From: Acidobacteriaceae bacterium
GTDB lineage: Bacteria; Acidobacteriota; Terriglobia; Terriglobales; Acidobacteriaceae
Length of the DNA: 64,000 nucleotides
Assembly: GCA_025462735.1 (NCBI GenBank)
Contig: JAOAPC010000021.1
Location: 1-64,000, forward strand
Direction: 5' to 3'
Shown: piece by piece, positions 23,456-31,456 of the stretch
Layout: each line of letters begins with the position of its first letter
Numbering within the stretch: position 1 is the first letter of the stretch
Position numbers and translations under genes: made by a program
Notes under the pieces: model-generated
Seen by the model: the letters and a program-made list of their open reading frames with translations, nothing else
Told to the model about the DNA's origin: nothing
Database searches by the model: none

Positions 23456-24481
23456 CTAAGGCTGCACCTCGTATACCCGAACCTCGGCCTCTTGATTCTC
23501 GTGATGAGGAACGGCGAGATAGTAGCGATTCAGTTCCGGCACTAGAGTGCCCGTCTTTGCACGGAACGCTCCCGGCACCTTCGCCAGCAAAGCGTAGTGG
23601 TCGGCATCTTTCTGTTCGAAAACGTCCAAAGCTCCGTCCCCGGCTAGATAAAGGCGCTTATGTTTGGCGTCGTAACTCATATCATCGACCATTCCCACCG
23701 CAGGCAGGCTGGTTACCACTTTACCGTTGTCCGAGTTCAGAACAATTAGCTTTCCGGGCTTTCTGGTTACGACGAACAAACGGTGATCCGGCTCGTCAAA
23801 GGCCATCGCAACATTCGCCGTGTCGCCTGCCGGCAAAGGCCAAGTAGCCAGTATCGCAGAGGTTTTCCGGTTGACGACTGCGACCGCACTCTTACCTGTG
23901 ACGTTGCAAAACATGCGCGGTCCAGACTTCTCAGGCACGATGGCTTCGACGTGGTCGTTATCGATTTTGATATCGCGCAACTTCTTTGACTTGTCGGTAT
24001 CAATAACGCTGATCAACGAGTACGGCGTATGAGCCTCTCGGCCTCCGTTGACGACATAAAGGTAATGAGTGGCGGGATCGTAGGCGATAGAATCCGCATC
24101 GATCGCGACTTTGATCTCTTCAAGTAACTTGTAACTATCGCTGTCGTACACCTGCACTGCGGAAGCGTCACCAGCCACAACGAAAAGCTTCTTCAAGTCT
24201 TTGCGAAAAAGAATTGCGTGCGGCGCTTTCACGTCATCAATGGTGTGAATGAGTTGGTTTGTGCTGGTGTCTAACACCAGAACCTTTTCATTTTCTTCCC
24301 CGGTCAAGAACAGCCTGTGTCCATCGACGTCTGGAGCGAAATGATCAAAGTCGCCATCGTGGAGGCCCGGCAAAGGGATGGTCGCCACCAGTTTCAAAGG
24401 TGCGTGGTCTTCAGCATTAGCCTTGCAGCCAACAGCCAGCGCGATTGACAGCGCAAGAACGACAAAATGCGTTCGCTTCAT
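23456..24481 (-). CDS. Exported YncE-like beta-propeller protein (copy 1)
   Basis: The 341-aa protein begins with a signal sequence ending LAVGCKANA, which could be a Sec or, less surely, a lipoprotein signal. The rest consists of repeated blades of about 42-45 residues with DTSTNQLIHTIDDVKAPHAI and LFVVAGDASAVQVYDSDSYK-type units. These are typical of YncE/YVTN seven-bladed propellers that bind ligands or partner proteins in the periplasm. It is the first gene of the minus-strand operon. It is a divergent paralogue of the protein at 24804-25814, sharing the PLKLV..I.LP start and the LVPELNRY..AVP.HE ending. The ligand is unknown. Confidence 0.85.
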   Translation of the reverse strand: MKRTHFVVLALSIALAVGCKANAEDHAPLKLVATIPLPGLHDGDFDHFAPDVDGHRLFLTGEENEKVLVLDTSTNQLIHTIDDVKAPHAILFRKDLKKLFVVAGDASAVQVYDSDSYKLLEEIKVAIDADSIAYDPATHYLYVVNGGREAHTPYSLISVIDTDKSKKLRDIKIDNDHVEAIVPEKSGPRMFCNVTGKSAVAVVNRKTSAILATWPLPAGDTANVAMAFDEPDHRLFVVTRKPGKLIVLNSDNGKVVTSLPAVGMVDDMSYDAKHKRLYLAGDGALDVFEQKDADHYALLAKVPGAFRAKTGTLVPELNRYYLAVPHHENQEAEVRVYEVQP

Positions 24482-24803
24482 AATTTCTCCAAGAGTGCCG
24501 TGCAGCAGTCCATAAAAAGTGGGACACTCGACGGCGGATGCTATCCCACCGTAGGAGCCGAGTCAACGTATCTTCTTACTGGTGAATAACGAACAAGCCT
24601 CGCATTACTTCAAAGTAGCGTGTTTTCAAGGAAAAAGTATCGTGCCTTGGATCTTCAGCTAAACGGAAATTAATTTTGGTTTCAGTTCGCGCGCCGGTGA
24701 ATGAATTATGCTGTCTGCGCTGGTTCTGGTGCGGTCTGCGGGCCGCACGAGATCGAACAATTTTTAAATTTGTTCCACACTAGAACACAGCTACGGAGAA
24801 AAA
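24482..24803. promoter_or_regulatory. Divergent control region between the two operons of the catabolic locus
   Basis: This 322-bp region separates two divergent paralogous propeller genes and should hold both operon promoters. Near its left end GTGGGA (24519-24524) and TCCCAC (24544-24549) form an inverted pair. GTGCGG (24729-24734) and CCGCAC (24743-24748) form a small hairpin. Close to the right-hand start lie alternating half-sites GAACA (24755), TGTTC (24771) and GAACA (24783). No perfect -10/-35 was identified for either direction. Confidence 0.5.
24755..24787. promoter_or_regulatory. Candidate operator: GAACA/TGTTC alternating half-sites
   Basis: GAACAA (24755-24760) faces TTTGTTC (24769-24775) across an A/T-only core. 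A third half-site, TAGAACA (24781-24787), follows. The sites lie 17-49 bp upstream of the propeller ATG at 24804, in the position of an activator or repressor site for the plus operon. The OmpR-type regulator encoded at 25903 is an obvious candidate binder, but this is inference. Confidence 0.35.
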
Positions 24804-25814
24804 ATGAAAAAGTATTTCTTAGTTGCCATTACGGTTTTCATTGCCTTAGGCATAAAAGTCCAGGCCGAAGAAACTGCGCCGCTCAAACTTGTCCAGACCA
24901 TCACACTGCCTGCTGCCGTTAAAGGGCATTTCGATCATTTCGAGGTTGATCTGAAAGGTGGCCGGCTGTTTGCGACTCCCGAGGGGTACAAATCCGTCCT
25001 CGTTTTCGACCTAAAGACCGGAAAACTCATTCACACTATCGGCGGGATCGAGAAGTCGCATGCCGTGCTCTATCGCGAAGACCTCGACCGCATATACGTG
25101 ACCGATGGCGAGGCTGGCGACGTCAAGATATTCGACGGCAAAACCTACAAATTGCTTTCGACGGTGAAGCTATTGGAAGACGCTGATTCCATCGGATACG
25201 ATCCGGCAACCAAATACCTATACATCGACAATGGTGGTGGCGATGTCCATCAGACGTATTCCATGATCAGCGTTGTCGACACCACAGCTGGTAAGAAGCT
25301 AGCCGATATCAAAGTCGACGGAGACACGCTTGAGGCCATGGCTCTGGAGACATCGAGCCCGAAAATTTACGTCAACAACAAAGCAAAGAACCAGGTTGAC
25401 GTTGTTGACCGAGAAAAACATGAGGTCGTTGCGAGCTGGCCGGTTACCAAGTGCAAGCCAAACGTCGCCATAGGATTGGATGAAGCAGACCATCGATTAT
25501 TTGTGGCTTGCCGCGACGGACAGATTTCCGTACTGGACACTCAGACCGGAAAGGAAATCACCACTCTGCCAATCACGAAGGGTGTCGACGACATGAAGTA
25601 CGACGCCGGCAGTAAGCGTATTTATGCCGCTGGCGACGGAAGCGTCGATGTGTATGAACAGACCGACCCAGACAACTACAAGCTGCTGGGAAAGGTTCCC
25701 ACCGGACCGCTTGGGAAAACTGCGCGCCTGGTTCCAGAACTGAATCGTTACTTCGTGGCCGTACCGCAGCACGAAACTGAAAGCGCGAAGATTCTAGTAT
25801 TCGAGGTGCACTGA
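24804..25814 (+). CDS. Exported YncE-like beta-propeller protein (copy 2)
   Basis: The 336-aa protein has a Sec signal (MKKYFLVAITVFIALGIKVQAEE) and seven-bladed propeller repeats such as FDLKTGKLIHTIGGIEKSHA and IYVTDGEAGDVKIFDGKTYK. It is a paralogue of the minus-strand protein at 23456-24481; the pair lie head-to-head. GGAG lies 8-12 nt before the ATG. A strong hairpin follows the stop, so this gene may be expressed in excess of the downstream regulator genes. It is periplasmic. The ligand or partner is unknown. Confidence 0.86.
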   Translation: MKKYFLVAITVFIALGIKVQAEETAPLKLVQTITLPAAVKGHFDHFEVDLKGGRLFATPEGYKSVLVFDLKTGKLIHTIGGIEKSHAVLYREDLDRIYVTDGEAGDVKIFDGKTYKLLSTVKLLEDADSIGYDPATKYLYIDNGGGDVHQTYSMISVVDTTAGKKLADIKVDGDTLEAMALETSSPKIYVNNKAKNQVDVVDREKHEVVASWPVTKCKPNVAIGLDEADHRLFVACRDGQISVLDTQTGKEITTLPITKGVDDMKYDAGSKRIYAAGDGSVDVYEQTDPDNYKLLGKVPTGPLGKTARLVPELNRYFVAVPQHETESAKILVFEVH

Positions 25815-25859
25815 GCGAAGCTCCCGCAGGGTACCTCCCGGGTGCCTTGCGGGATTCGC
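25815..25859 (+). terminator. Strong hairpin after the propeller gene, no U-tract
   Basis: CCCGCAGGGTACC (25823-25835) pairs with GGTGCCTTGCGGG (25841-25853) over 13 bp, with two G-T wobbles and a 5-nt loop. An outer GCGAA/TTCGC pair extends it. It begins directly after the stop codon. There is no T-run, so it is a stabiliser or partial terminator rather than a canonical intrinsic terminator. Confidence 0.5.
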
Positions 25860-25902
25860 GCTGTTTGGTTACTCCGTGTGCGATGATATTTGTAAGGCTC
25901 GT

Positions 25903-26577
25903 ATGCGCATACTCTTAGTTGAAGACGAACGCAAGGTTGCGAGCTTTATTGCCCGCGCACTAAGAGAAAATACCTACGCAGTGGATGTAGCTGAGACGGG
26001 CGAGAAGGCACTAGAAATGGCGGCCGACGTCCACTACGACGCCATCTTACTCGACGTCCGACTACCCCGCATGAATGGTCTTGAGGTGTGCCGCGAGCTG
26101 CGGCAGCGCGGAATCGAGTCGCCCGTTCTGGTTCTTACGGCGCGAGGGCTGACCGAGCAAAAAGTGGAAGGACTCGACTCCGGTGCGGATGACTATCTAA
26201 CCAAACCCTTTGTCTTGGCGGAACTTCTCGCGCGCGTCCGCGCCCTGGTTCGACGAGGCTTCCACAGTGGTAACGCCAAATTAAGCTACGCAGATCTTTC
26301 GCTGGACCGTCACCGCCGGCGCGCAACCCTTGGCCGCGAGGTGATTCCTCTTACCAGCAAGGAATTCGCACTGCTCGAGCTGTTCTTGCTTCGCGCCCCT
26401 GAACTGATCACCCGCAGCGAAATTGTCGAGCATGTTTGGGATTGCCACTTCGACAGCGAGACCAATCTGGTCGAAGTCTATATCAACCGCTTGCGCAAGA
26501 AGCTCGAAGAAGGTCAATCGGTAAAGATGATCCACACCGTTCGCGGCGTAGGCTACCGACTGGGAATGCCCGAATGA
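25903..26577 (+). CDS. OmpR/PhoB-type response regulator
   Basis: This 224-aa two-domain regulator has an N-terminal receiver with acidic E7/D8, phosphoacceptor D51 in AILLDVRLPRMNG, the Thr of VLTARG and K101 in LTKPF. The C-terminal winged-helix domain has LTSKEFALLELFLLRAPELI and the NLVEVYINRLRKKL recognition-helix region. I place the start at ATG 25903 (MRILLVEDE); the frame stays open to GTG 25876 but family members begin at MRILLVED. Its stop overlaps the kinase start in ATGA. It probably controls the flanking operons. Confidence 0.95.
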   Translation: MRILLVEDERKVASFIARALRENTYAVDVAETGEKALEMAADVHYDAILLDVRLPRMNGLEVCRELRQRGIESPVLVLTARGLTEQKVEGLDSGADDYLTKPFVLAELLARVRALVRRGFHSGNAKLSYADLSLDRHRRRATLGREVIPLTSKEFALLELFLLRAPELITRSEIVEHVWDCHFDSETNLVEVYINRLRKKLEEGQSVKMIHTVRGVGYRLGMPE

Positions 26578-27995
26578 TAGCGAAGACGCTTCGCTTTCGA
26601 ATGATGTTGTTGTTCACCACAGTGGTTGGGGTTCTCCTTGCCGCGTCCTATCTTGCGTTCTTTGGCCTCCTGTCCCACGCCGTTCGTACCCAACTGAACC
26701 GTCAGTTGCTGGAGACCGCTCGGCCGGTCATTGCTGACATCATTACGGAACCCGACGCACAGGACGTAAACCGATTGGACATTCCCGGGGAGTTTTTTGA
26801 ACTGCTGGACCCTGCCGGACAGGTCCTTCAACGTTCCAAAAATGTTACGGCGCCTATCGAGCTGAACGGAATTAACCCTGCAATTTCACATCCGACGTTT
26901 GGCAGTGCAACCATCGGTCATGAATCAATCCGCGTTGCACTGGTGCCTTTTCAACAAGGGAAACGAACGCGTGTTTTGTTGGTGGCTATCCCCACACTGG
27001 GTACCAATAGTGTGCTCGACGGGTTTGGCAAGGTCGCCCTACTGCTATTTCCTCTGAGCCTGGCGCTTACGGCCAGCATTTCGGCCTTTTATGTAGGAAG
27101 AAGTCTGGCCCCGATCAAAGCCCTGACGCGGCACGCCGCTCTGATGGCGAGAAGGGTTACCAATCAGAATGGGTTCTGGTCACCGCTACCCGTCTCCTCA
27201 CCCTATGACGAACTGAGTCGCCTAGCCGAGACCTTTAACCACCTGTTCCAGGGCATCGATTCAGCAGTCCGTCAGTTGCGCCAGTTTGTGACTGACGCTT
27301 CGCACGAACTGCGCACACCGCTCTCAGTTCTGCACGGTGAGACCGAATTGCTGCTGTCCAAACCTCGGAATGCTGAAGAATATCGAAAGACTCTGTCCGA
27401 CTTTGGTGACGAGTTCAAGAAGCTGACGCGGATCGTGGAAGGATTGTTTACGCTTTCCATGGCTGACGCTGGGCAGCTTCAGTTGATGTCTGAGCCTCTT
27501 TACATTAACGAGGTCCTAGAAGAGGCGTGCGCTCTGGTCACGTCACGCGCACTCGCAAAGAAGATTGCAATCGTTCGAGAGCTAAACGAGGAGCTTCCCT
27601 ACTCCGGGGACGAGGCTTTTCTGCACCAACTGTTCCTGATTTTTCTCGACAATGCGATCAAGTATTCTCCCGAGGCCACCCAAGTCCGCGTAACTCTAGA
27701 GCAAGAGGCGGGTAAGATTCGAGTTCATTTCGAAGACCAGGGCATCGGGATCTCAAGCGCGCACTTGCCCTTCATATTCGAGCGCTTCTATCGTGCCGAC
27801 CCGCACAACAGTGGGGAAACGCATAGCGGGGGGCTGGGCTTGGCCATCGCTCAGGCCATTGTTCGTGCCCAGGGCGGCGTCATTGAGTGCCGGAGCGCGT
27901 CCGGCGCAGGCTCAACGTTCACAGTGGTTTTGCCCGCAACTCATGCCGCAAGCAACCTCAAAAGTAAACCTGAACAGAAATTAATCTTGGGTTAA
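26574..27995 (+). CDS. Membrane sensor histidine kinase
   Basis: This 473-aa kinase starts at ATG 26574, overlapping the regulator stop by 4 nt (ATGA). Helix 1 (MMLLFTTVVGVLLAASYLAF) and helix 2 (VALLLFPLSLALTASISAFY) bracket a periplasmic sensor of about 130 residues with no named fold. A HAMP-like linker (SLAPIKALTRHAALMARR) follows. The HisKA H-box is SHELRTPLSVLHGE near 242. The HATPase_c boxes are DNAIKYS near 359, GIGISSAHLPFIFERFYR and GLGLAIAQAIV. It phosphorylates the adjacent regulator. Confidence 0.95.
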   Translation: MIAKTLRFRMMLLFTTVVGVLLAASYLAFFGLLSHAVRTQLNRQLLETARPVIADIITEPDAQDVNRLDIPGEFFELLDPAGQVLQRSKNVTAPIELNGINPAISHPTFGSATIGHESIRVALVPFQQGKRTRVLLVAIPTLGTNSVLDGFGKVALLLFPLSLALTASISAFYVGRSLAPIKALTRHAALMARRVTNQNGFWSPLPVSSPYDELSRLAETFNHLFQGIDSAVRQLRQFVTDASHELRTPLSVLHGETELLLSKPRNAEEYRKTLSDFGDEFKKLTRIVEGLFTLSMADAGQLQLMSEPLYINEVLEEACALVTSRALAKKIAIVRELNEELPYSGDEAFLHQLFLIFLDNAIKYSPEATQVRVTLEQEAGKIRVHFEDQGIGISSAHLPFIFERFYRADPHNSGETHSGGLGLAIAQAIVRAQGGVIECRSASGAGSTFTVVLPATHAASNLKSKPEQKLILG

Positions 27996-28017
27996 CGGCT
28001 CAACAGGCGTACAGTGG

Positions 28018-28045
28018 CCTCCGCACATGTGGAGGTGATCCGGTG
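28018..28045 (+). promoter_or_regulatory. Extended Shine-Dalgarno inside a hairpin, TonB-receptor start
   Basis: GGAGGTGATCC (28031-28041) is an 11-nt perfect complement to the usual 16S rRNA 3' end, one base before the GTG start at 28043. CCTCCGC (28018-28024) can pair with GTGGAGG (28029-28035) around the loop ACAT, seven pairs with one G-T wobble, masking the ribosome binding site. This looks like a built-in translational switch or a co-translationally opened site. Confidence 0.6.
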
Positions 28046-31000
28046 TCCTTTGGAAGATCGATTGGCCTAGCGGCAGCGACGTTGTTTCTCGGAATTCTAG
28101 CTTCAATCCCGGCCGACGCGCAGGTCGCGGGAGCAACACTTTCCGGCACGATCACAGACTCCTCCGGTGGGGTTGTTCCCGGCGCGCGGGTCATCATTAA
28201 GAATGTAGCCACCGGGGTAACCACAGAGGTTACGACGAATTCGGACGGCTTTTACAATGCGGCCAACCTCCTGCCTGGAGAGTACTCGGTCACCGTATCG
28301 TCAAAGGGCTACACCATTGAGGAAAGAACCGGGATTTCACTCACGGTCGGTGCGCAGCAAGTTTTCGATCTCACTCTGCGCGTTGGAAGCACCAAAGAAG
28401 TATTGGTGGTCACCGCTGAAGCGCCTTCCATACAACTCAACAGTTCGGACATTAGCGCGGTAGTAAATGAGACCACGGTGCGGGAGTTGCCGCTTAACGG
28501 CCGCAGTTGGACCGACCTGGCAGAATTGCAGCCGGGAGTAAATGCGATTCATACGCAGCCTGATTTTTCAGCAGGCACCGATCGAGGCAATCGCGGTTTC
28601 GGTCAGCAGCTGACTATTTCTGGGGCGCGGCCGCAGCAAAACAATTATCGTCTCGACGGGGTCAGCCTCAACGATTACGCCAATGGAGCCCCCGGCAGCG
28701 TATTAGGTGGAAACCTCGGGGTGGATGCCATCCAGGAGTTCTCCGTGTTGACCAGTAACTACTCGGCGGAGTACGGCAAGACTTCCGGCGGAGTAGTCAA
28801 TGCCATTACCCGATCAGGGACAAATCGGTTTCACGGCAGCGTGTACGAGTTTCTTCGCAACAGCGCACTCGACGCCAGAAACTATTTCGACGGGGCAAAA
28901 ATTCCGCCGTTCAAGAGGAACCAGTTTGGCGGAGCCATCGGCGGCCCTATTTTGAAGGACCATACCTTCTTCTTCGCTGACTACGAAGGCATTCGGCAGT
29001 CGAAAGGCATATCAACGTTTACCACGGTGCCTTCTCAGGAGGCACGGAACGGGCAGATGTGTCATCTGGGGAATCCTACGGATCCTACGGACACTACTTG
29101 CCCGCATTCAATCACTGTTGATCCATTCGCAGCTAAATATCTCACTTTTTACCATCTACCCGATCCCGGTACGGTCTTTGGGAATGGCGATCTCGGGCAC
29201 TACACCTTCGTCGGCCAGCAGATAGTGAACGAAAATTTCTTCACTGGACGCGTTGACCACAAAATCTCCAACAGCGACAGCCTGTTCGGGACGTATATGT
29301 ACGACAAGACTCCTTATTCGGCGCCCGACGGGCTGAACAATGTGGAGTTCGACACTTTGACCTCGCGGCAGTTCCTTTCCGTAGAAGAGACCCATCTCTT
29401 CAACTCTCGCTTTGCCAATTCCATTCGCGTTGGAGGAAACCACGAAGCAGTTGCAAATAATCAGAGCCTCAAGGCGATCAATCCGGCTGCGGCCGATGCA
29501 TCTTTAGGAGTCGGGGGATCGGCGTTTGCAGGCCGCGATGCGACCCAGGTCCTGATGGGTGGTGGAGTCACGGACTTTACAGGTGGGGTGGGTGGAAGCC
29601 CCACTTACTTCTACCATTGGAATTCCGCCCAGGTTTACGACGATGCCTTTCTCACCAGAGGCACGCACTCCCTACGCTTCGGCGTCGCTATCGAACGTGA
29701 GATGCTCAACTTGCTTGCCGACACCGATCCCAACGGAATCTGGAACTTTGACAATCTTCAAGGATTTCTCACCAACCAGCCATCAAGATTTCAAGGTGGA
29801 ATTGCCAGCACGCTTTCCCCACGCAATCTGCGGCAGACTATCTTCGGGGTATACCTTCAAGACGACTGGCGCGCCAGACCAAACCTGACGCTCAATTTGG
29901 GCCTGCGCTACGAAATGTCAACTGTGATTTCGGAAACTGCCGGCAAGCTGGCGAATTTGCGGAACATCTCCGACGCCACCGCTCACTTGGGTAATCCTTT
30001 CTTCAGCAATCCAACCCTAAAAGATTTTGAACCGCGTTTTGGCTTTGCTTGGGACCCCTTGCGCAATGGGAAGACCGCAGTCCGCGGAGGAATTGGGATG
30101 TTCGATGTGCAGCCGCTGCCATACCAGTTTCCGCTTCTGACCAGCCAGGCGGTTCCTTTCTTTTCCTATACCGTGGTAAAGGATCCCACAGCAGTATGCG
30201 CTACCGCCTGTCCGAATCCTTTCCCCAACTTCGGCGGCCAAAATATTTCATTTCCGGTGAATAGATTGCGCAGTACTTATCTGGAACCGAACCCCAAGCG
30301 CAACTATGTGATGCAGTGGAATCTCAATGTCCAGCAGCAGCTTGCTCCCAGCCTCACCGGGATGCTTGCCTATGTGGGGTCGCGCGGCGTGCATCAGCCA
30401 TTCCGGGTAGATGACGCCAATCTTGTGATTCCGACGAAGACCTCGGCCGGGTACGTCTGGCCCTTTGCACCAGGTGGTGGCCCTCTCGATCCGATCAATC
30501 CAAACTTTGGCTCGATCAAAGGAATGTTCTATACGGGGCACTCCCAATATGACGCCATGGAAGCGCAGTTGATGAAGCGCATGAGCCACGGCTTTCAGGT
30601 GCAAGGCACTTTCACCTGGAGTAAGAGCATTGATAGCAGCTCGGCCTCCGTTGCAGGCGATTCGTTCGGCAATTCAATCTCCAGCCTTGACTGGTTCGAC
30701 CTAAGATTGACCCGGGGCCCATCGGACTTCAACGTCGGGCGCACCGTGGTGATAAACGGTGTATGGGACGTCCCCACTCCGAAGTCCTTTGCGGGACCAG
30801 CGCAAGCGGTCTTAGGGGGATGGGAACTGGGGCTTATCTTTACCGCCAGCGATGGAGTTCCGTTCACTCCCAGTTGGGGAACAGGCTCGGATCCGGCAAA
30901 TACCAACAGCGGTGATGATTGGGCATTTCCAAATCGACTTGGCGGATCAGGTTGCAGTAAGCTGACGAACCCTGGGAATCCCAACCAGTACATTAAAACA

Positions 31001-31456
31001 GGGTGTTTCTCAGTTCCCACCGCTCCAAATTTAGCGTTCTGGAACGCGAACTGCAATCCCTCGCCGGCGAGCTTGGTGGACGCGAACGGGAACCAAATTA
31101 CCATTAGCCACCCGCTGACTCCAATCACAGACGGAGCGGGTTGGCTTCCAGCTCTGCCATGCTTTAATCTCCGCGGCAACGCCGGACGAAATACTATCAC
31201 CGGGCCGGGCGTAACCGAGCTCGACTTCTCTCTATTTAAGAACAACTACATTCCGAGAATCTCGGAAAGATTCAATGTGCAGTTCCGCGCGGAACTCTTC
31301 AATATTCTCAATCATGCCAACTTTGCTCCACCCTCGACCCCAACCAATACAGACATTTTCGATGGGACAGGACTTCTGAACTCCGGGGCTGGTCAAGTGA
31401 CGCGGACCACCACTACGGCGCGAGAGATTCAGCTCGCCGTCAAAGTGATCTTCTAG
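28043..31456 (+). CDS. TonB-dependent receptor with N-terminal carboxypeptidase-regulatory domain
   Basis: This 1137-aa outer-membrane importer has a signal peptide (LAAATLFLGILASIPADAQ). A CarboxypepD_reg-like beta-sandwich follows (residues about 30-110, GTITDSSGGVVPGARVIIKN). The plug domain shows VRELPLNGRSWTDLAELQPG and YRLDGVSLNDYANG. The 22-strand barrel ends in the aromatic-terminated VKVIF. This is the giant Oar-like type common in Acidobacteriota. The start is GTG 28043. It is downstream of the two-component pair and upstream of an MmgE/PrpD gene. The ligand is unknown, but context suggests the locus substrate. Confidence 0.93.
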   Translation: MSFGRSIGLAAATLFLGILASIPADAQVAGATLSGTITDSSGGVVPGARVIIKNVATGVTTEVTTNSDGFYNAANLLPGEYSVTVSSKGYTIEERTGISLTVGAQQVFDLTLRVGSTKEVLVVTAEAPSIQLNSSDISAVVNETTVRELPLNGRSWTDLAELQPGVNAIHTQPDFSAGTDRGNRGFGQQLTISGARPQQNNYRLDGVSLNDYANGAPGSVLGGNLGVDAIQEFSVLTSNYSAEYGKTSGGVVNAITRSGTNRFHGSVYEFLRNSALDARNYFDGAKIPPFKRNQFGGAIGGPILKDHTFFFADYEGIRQSKGISTFTTVPSQEARNGQMCHLGNPTDPTDTTCPHSITVDPFAAKYLTFYHLPDPGTVFGNGDLGHYTFVGQQIVNENFFTGRVDHKISNSDSLFGTYMYDKTPYSAPDGLNNVEFDTLTSRQFLSVEETHLFNSRFANSIRVGGNHEAVANNQSLKAINPAAADASLGVGGSAFAGRDATQVLMGGGVTDFTGGVGGSPTYFYHWNSAQVYDDAFLTRGTHSLRFGVAIEREMLNLLADTDPNGIWNFDNLQGFLTNQPSRFQGGIASTLSPRNLRQTIFGVYLQDDWRARPNLTLNLGLRYEMSTVISETAGKLANLRNISDATAHLGNPFFSNPTLKDFEPRFGFAWDPLRNGKTAVRGGIGMFDVQPLPYQFPLLTSQAVPFFSYTVVKDPTAVCATACPNPFPNFGGQNISFPVNRLRSTYLEPNPKRNYVMQWNLNVQQQLAPSLTGMLAYVGSRGVHQPFRVDDANLVIPTKTSAGYVWPFAPGGGPLDPINPNFGSIKGMFYTGHSQYDAMEAQLMKRMSHGFQVQGTFTWSKSIDSSSASVAGDSFGNSISSLDWFDLRLTRGPSDFNVGRTVVINGVWDVPTPKSFAGPAQAVLGGWELGLIFTASDGVPFTPSWGTGSDPANTNSGDDWAFPNRLGGSGCSKLTNPGNPNQYIKTGCFSVPTAPNLAFWNANCNPSPASLVDANGNQITISHPLTPITDGAGWLPALPCFNLRGNAGRNTITGPGVTELDFSLFKNNYIPRISERFNVQFRAELFNILNHANFAPPSTPTNTDIFDGTGLLNSGAGQVTRTTTTAREIQLAVKVIF

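Follow-up and report, generated by a model that had tools for sequence, protein, structure and literature searches.

An exceptional ribosome-binding site within a conserved pair of predicted two-component promoters at a TonB-dependent receptor locus of an Acidobacteriaceae bacterium

The DNA analysed here (the window) is a stretch of 64,000 nucleotides from an Acidobacteriaceae bacterium, whose genome assembly comprises 4.36 Mb in 24 contigs. All features described lie on the forward (+) strand, and three co-directional genes precede that of a TonB-dependent receptor. The first gene of the operon (24804-25814) encodes a beta-propeller (YncE-like) protein, scoring below the YncE equivalog cut-off. 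It is followed by the gene for an OmpR/PhoB-type response regulator (25876-26577) with the Pfam domains Response_reg and Trans_reg_C, and by that for a histidine kinase (26574-27995, with the start picked by eye in the open reading frame 26436-27995), whose ATG overlaps the regulator's stop codon as ATGA. After a gap of 47 bp, the receptor gene (28043-31456) begins with GTG and encodes 1137 amino acids with a carboxypeptidase-regulatory-like N-terminal domain. Its CarboxypepD_reg, Plug and beta-barrel domains (PF13620, PF07715, PF25183) all exceed their cut-offs, and its nearest named relatives are found in acidobacterial metagenome-assembled genomes. The initial annotation had called the receptor giant, a description we cannot uphold, since the open frames of 13 paralogues from this genome (E up to 1e-50) span 1083-1311 aa, and the receptor's own open frame in this comparison of frame lengths is 1160 aa. 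The best NCBIfam model for the response regulator was the heavy-metal regulator TIGR01387 (cztR/silR/copR), and this assignment was rejected because the score of 238.2 bits falls below the curated cut-off of 279.2 bits.

Besides the window, 16 distinct loci of relatives have a histidine kinase gene next to a receptor gene (loci are given below by L numbers). The response regulator was seen ahead of the kinase in L003, L014, L016 and L033. One relative carries a second copy of the locus (L121/L193), in which the kinase frame holds a TGA stop, and leader and operator are present. A terminator scan found no terminator-like site in the gap between kinase and receptor, which makes transcriptional read-through from the operon into the receptor gene plausible.

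A putative operator occurs twice at this locus. Copy 1, AACGGAAATTAATTTTGGTTTCA (24662-24684), heads the propeller-regulator-kinase operon, and copy 2 (27968-27996) lies ahead of the receptor gene, with a direct repeat of TTAAT (27981-27985) and TTAAC (27992-27996) spaced 11 bp apart. The second half-site of copy 2 contains the stop codon of the histidine kinase (27993-27995), a layout shared by all aligned relatives other than L121, where the kinase frame is broken earlier. All 15 aligned leaders share the operator CCTRAACRGAAATTAATNNTNNNTTAA, which is nearly invariant, with few changes. To search genomes, a pattern was written to fit both copies. In the source genome, it matched with zero mismatches only at 27973-27995 and 24662-24684; a third place appeared with one mismatch, and allowing up to two mismatches gave 3 places, equal to the 3 of the reversed control. 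When 89 genomes of the related family were searched with at most one mismatch, the pattern was found at 32 places in 19 genomes, and the reversed pattern at 0. This comparison with the reversed control is the stronger test of the predicted operator than the search of the source genome. Thirty operator loci were fetched, and within 1.5 kb there was a receptor in 13, a propeller homologue in 14 (on the opposite strand in L187, L188 and L189), and neither in 3; the C-terminal end of a response regulator was present in 12 of the 30. An operator at both the operon head and the receptor gene suggests a two-target circuit that is probably autoregulated. Among the titles listed from a partial literature collection, none dealt with this operator or receptor in Acidobacteria.

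Several receptors that are not linked to a regulator (L004, L009-L013, L017, L025, L027, L034 and L041) also carry AAATTAAT upstream, as read by eye. In several of these the second half-site lies 10 rather than 11 bp away, with TAAGCT about 25 nt further on, and L017 has two copies of AAATTAAT 34 bp apart. L200 (1499 to 1850) combines this operator with a hairpin over the ribosome site of an unlinked receptor, which faces a divergent propeller gene.

Distances measured from AAATTAAT also point to a -10 element at each copy. At the operon head, the predicted -10 is TATGCT (24707-24712), 32 nt after AAATTAAT, and at the receptor gene it is TACAGT (28010-28015), 24 nt after it, for which a transcription start is expected at ∼28020-28024. 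In group-2-type receptor leaders, TANNCT stands exactly 32 nt after AAATTAAT in all 13. Of the 19 operator sites that do not serve a receptor (17 from the 89-genome search plus L171, counted as the window's operon head, and L149), 12 have TANNCT at +32 and 3 have it at +33 or +34; the other 4, which include L174 as read by eye, lack it. The window, L003 and L071 have TACAGT, TACAGT and TACATT at +24, +24 and +23, respectively. Compared over the two copies in the window (27978-28015 and 24667-24712), the distance from operator to -10 is 24 versus 32 nt, which differ by something other than a full turn of the helix. Judged from these alignments, the transcriptional elements, namely the predicted operator and its -10 spacing, are what is firmly conserved at the locus.

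Between this predicted promoter and the receptor's GTG (28043-28045) stands the Shine-Dalgarno sequence GGAGGTGATCC (28031-28041), one base ahead of the start codon. The initial annotation had described it as unusually long, and both its sequence and its placement proved correct. The source genome gave no 16S match. The duplex was calculated with a tail from the same order, where two 16S genes end in GGATCACCTCCTTTC, complementary to all 11 bases; if this species is alike, all 11 could pair with the anti-Shine-Dalgarno. Calculated in this way, the duplex of -23.4 kcal/mol is the strongest of 48 putative genes in the window, this gene included and starts chosen automatically, the next best having -14.9 kcal/mol. 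Over an identical 22-nt stretch, the 13 paralogues, each with its best start, gave -7.9 to -13.1 kcal/mol, and when the stretch was shortened to -20 to -4, this gene gave -15.9 and the paralogues -7.3 to -11.7. Two copies of the 11-mer are present in the genome of 4.36 Mb, close to the chance expectation. The other copy is apparently coding, in the frame ATG GAG GTG ATC as read by eye, and only the receptor's copy stands in the position of a ribosome site. Among relatives, the complete 11-mer is present in the leaders of L016 and L099, and the median duplex was -17.8 kcal/mol in regulator-linked loci (n = 17) versus -10.75 kcal/mol in unlinked ones (n = 28). The ribosome site is exceptional.

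Part of this site can also be paired. The 5′ arm CCTCCGC (28018-28024) lies where the predicted promoter would start transcription, and the 3′ arm GTGGAGG (28029-28035) includes the Shine-Dalgarno core. As had been proposed from the sequence, the arms form seven pairs, one of them G-U, around the loop ACAT, and an eighth pair (G28017-U28036) appears in the predicted fold. The local minimum-energy fold includes this stem, with z = -1.99 over 50 nt, where 7 of 200 shuffled sequences folded as well. The corresponding number was 13 of 200 for 46 nt, and 80, 134 and 118 of 200 for 85, 111 and 150 nt; in the longer contexts the stem itself persists, but overall folding is unremarkable. With the Shine-Dalgarno part kept as it is and shuffling confined to the 5′ part, 2.2% of 500 sequences folded as well. 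The hairpin is thus strong locally, yet only modestly better than shuffled sequences. A riboswitch or RNA thermometer of a described family was considered and rejected, as a search of 24400-28600 against Rfam, with E up to 1, gave no match.

Whether the hairpin could act in the receptor's mRNA depends on where that RNA begins, and the predicted promoter bears directly on this. With a start ∼7 nt past the -10, all or nearly all of the arm would precede +1 in the 13 group-2-type leaders, and TACAGT at 28010-28015 would place the start in the window near 28022, within the 5′ arm. Folding predictions were made for RNAs with a series of 5′ ends. For 5′ ends between 27900 and 28018, the probability that GGAGG is unpaired was 0.00-0.08, so that the site can indeed be folded away, as the initial annotation had it, in RNA that starts at 28018 or further upstream. 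The probability was 0.02-0.04 at 28020, 0.03-0.22 at 28021, and 0.33-0.45 at 28022, with 0.33-0.58 across 28022-28027. The accessibility of the entire 11-mer shifts less, from 0.16-0.34 to 0.41-0.47. The cost of opening GGAGG fell from 10.0 kcal/mol, with 80 nt of upstream RNA, to 5.7 kcal/mol for RNA starting at 28022, in which the site is about half open in silico, not fully. The prediction is sensitive to the exact start, since with a 5′ end at 28018-28020, 2-4 nt upstream of the predicted one, the hairpin would stay in the normal mRNA.

The explanation that we favor, and consider probable, is that a receptor promoter activated by the response regulator overlaps the 5′ arm, and that the complete hairpin exists only in read-through RNA. 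In this scheme, the OmpR/PhoB-type regulator encoded upstream would bind the direct-repeat operator at 27968-27996 and activate transcription from the -10 at 28010-28015, yielding receptor RNA that would start at ∼28022, inside the would-be 5′ arm. The normal mRNA would then have a leader of ∼20 nt with a very strong Shine-Dalgarno, about half open by prediction, whose strength may offset the GTG start. RNA reading through from the propeller-regulator-kinase operon, if formed, would contain the complete hairpin, and its translation of the receptor would be muted, as in phage T4 gene e. The receptor's start region is packed into 47 bp. Against this explanation, a generic sigma-70 scan finds no promoter at the receptor start, although such a miss may be expected if the promoter is activator-dependent, as proposed. 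In addition, the window's -10 lies at 24 nt, whereas its own operon head and the group-2-type relatives use 32.

If the promoter overlaps the arm, the arm could be conserved without any selection for RNA structure. The CTC of the hairpin arm is made up, in receptor leaders, of the hexamer's final two bases and the one that follows, and many operon heads show CTC, CTG or CTT at this position with no adjoining ribosome site. It looks, from these comparisons, as though the 5′ arm is conserved since it is part of the promoter, and we lean towards viewing the hairpin as mostly a by-product of a CTC-ending -10 placed beside GGAG. The conservation of the stem was evaluated in an unfitted MAFFT alignment of 15 leaders, those of the window and 14 relatives, with identical leaders counted once (L074, L072/L103, L104/L123 and others). 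L033, L079, L109 and L111, in which a kinase is followed by a receptor homologue and the leader is different or distant, were omitted; L121 was retained despite the TGA stop in its kinase frame, and L200 was added for folding the arms of 16 leaders and for comparing the -10 distances. The initial annotation had looked to relatives for conservation of the pairing, and the outcome is mixed. Pairing is kept in many of them, yet stem columns were paired in 77.2% of cells versus 77.8% when partners were shuffled (48-56% in slid versions), and there were no changes on both sides of the stem; pairing therefore appears to be kept through conservation of the columns, not through covariation. A mid-stem A-G mismatch is present in 5 of the 15 leaders, and when the arms were folded alone, 9 of 16 reached -8 kcal/mol or better, the window's stem being the strongest (-13.7 kcal/mol), whereas L099 (-2.7 kcal/mol) and L101 (-2.5 kcal/mol) barely fold. 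An RNAalifold consensus did not choose this stem. It instead gave a weak pairing (-1.79 kcal/mol) of GGAGG (28031-28035) with codons 2-4, whose DNA is well conserved among linked relatives.

The best-surviving rival holds that the hairpin is maintained by selection as an insulator that blocks translation of the receptor from operon read-through RNA, so that only the regulator-activated promoter would yield receptor, an arrangement like that of T4 gene e. This fits with the hairpin's place beyond the kinase stop codon in a gap that has no terminator-like site, and with the number of leaders that fold well, the window's best of all. Some divergent arms also still pair, which speaks against a mere by-product: the inner pairing bases are exchanged in L071 and L200, and a matched insertion occurs in L121, observations made by eye on a fitted alignment and to be taken as a hint. 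Likewise, the window's own arm gives -13.7 kcal/mol, compared to -1.0 for its operon-head sequence in the same place. Across relatives, replacing the 5′ arm by operon-head sequence gave a mean of -5.5 versus -7.9 kcal/mol in 9 pairs, a low-power comparison in which the replacement was not significantly worse (p = 0.25). Swapping arms among leaders cost little (p = 0.09, 0.08 and 0.09 for 16, 10 and 5 leaders, again with low power), and this, together with the lack of covariation in the unfitted alignment, counts against selection on the pairing. The cost of opening the Shine-Dalgarno was higher in regulator-linked loci than in unlinked ones (medians of 7.7, n = 17, and 5.3 kcal/mol, n = 28; p = 0.004), as an insulator would have it, but the linked loci are kin, which makes such p-values optimistic. 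The linked set here includes L033 and L079; loci with a truncated leader, an unclear start or a distant relationship were dropped. Compared to the 11 unlinked members that carry the operator, the difference was not significant (7.7 versus 6.5 kcal/mol, p = 0.42). Furthermore, L200 has the hairpin although its upstream neighbor is divergent, so that read-through of this kind is not evident there. We regard a selected insulator as a tentative possibility, and a by-product as the more likely origin of the hairpin. The fuller proposal, in which one stretch of DNA would act both as the -10 and start of the regulator's promoter and as the anti-Shine-Dalgarno arm that silences an upstream-started message, leaving the receptor to be translated only from the activated promoter's RNA, seems to us rather doubtful.

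The initial annotation had gone further and read the folded site as translational control of the receptor. This would apply if the hairpin were part of the ordinary receptor mRNA and gated its translation as a thermosensor or as a ligand or protein switch. The stable local stem and the strong Shine-Dalgarno, with an opening cost of 13.1 kcal/mol that ranks third of the 48 putative genes in the window, speak for such a gate. However, the promoter evidence places the 5′ arm at or upstream of +1, coinciding with the predicted -10 and start region, and RNA from the predicted start would be without most of it. The absence of covariation and of any Rfam match, the mid-stem mismatch in a third of the leaders and the two that barely fold also argue against it, and translational control of the normal mRNA is unlikely. 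That the imperfect inverted repeat spanning the start region instead acts as DNA, with a repressor binding the dyad there, is highly improbable, because the palindrome's sequence is not conserved (CTCAACC/GGTGGAG types with varying loop lengths occur), in contrast to the nearly invariant direct-repeat operator upstream.

The favored explanation, that of a promoter overlapping the 5′ arm, has counterparts in known systems. The T4 genes e (lysozyme), soc, 49 and I-TevI have a hairpin over the Shine-Dalgarno on long transcripts, and a late promoter that overlaps or adjoins the 5′ arm, whose RNA is predicted to free the site (PMC3014915, PMC2988022). The receptor gene resembles gene e in that the Shine-Dalgarno would be paired in upstream-started RNA and that a nearer promoter is predicted within or after the 5′ arm. 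Unlike gene e, this is a bacterial receptor gene with a response-regulator promoter instead of a phage late promoter, its folding and start site are predictions, and conservation of the structure is weak in the receptor leaders. The transposase genes of IS10 and IS50 are protected from outside read-through by an arm that comes from the terminal repeat of the element. Similarly, read-through RNA at the receptor gene would fold over the ribosome site and the gene's own transcript would not, but the receptor's arm comes from the -10 and start region.

The predicted promoters themselves resemble those of the OmpR/PhoB family. In PhoB-type operators, half-sites are usually repeated in the same orientation at intervals of roughly one turn of the helix, and the -10 follows at a fixed spacing. 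An adjacent regulator with Trans_reg_C, direct repeats spaced 11 bp apart and a -10 at a set distance are consistent with this pattern, as is a regulator that may control its own operon and a neighboring membrane-protein gene. Unlike the named OmpR/PhoB regulators, this one has an operator and a signal not assigned to a named member, and it scores below the heavy-metal regulator cut-off. For the ribosome site, a study of Staphylococcus aureus describes extended Shine-Dalgarno motifs at about 30% of initiation sites (PMC13009471). As in those motifs, pairing here could run past GGAGG toward the start codon, in GGAGGUGAUCC; unlike in S. aureus, it concerns one exceptional site, and use of the extra pairs is putative.

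The firm result of this analysis is an exceptional ribosome site set within a conserved pair of predicted two-component promoters. If the hairpin does act as an insulator, a form of regulation known from phage T4, and from transposons, would extend to a bacterial receptor gene. It would also be a warning that hairpins masking a Shine-Dalgarno, when read from DNA, may span a promoter and be missing from the mRNA that is actually made. Whether or not the insulator reading holds, the conserved operator provides a regulon that can be tested, that of a two-component system and its receptor in acidobacteria.
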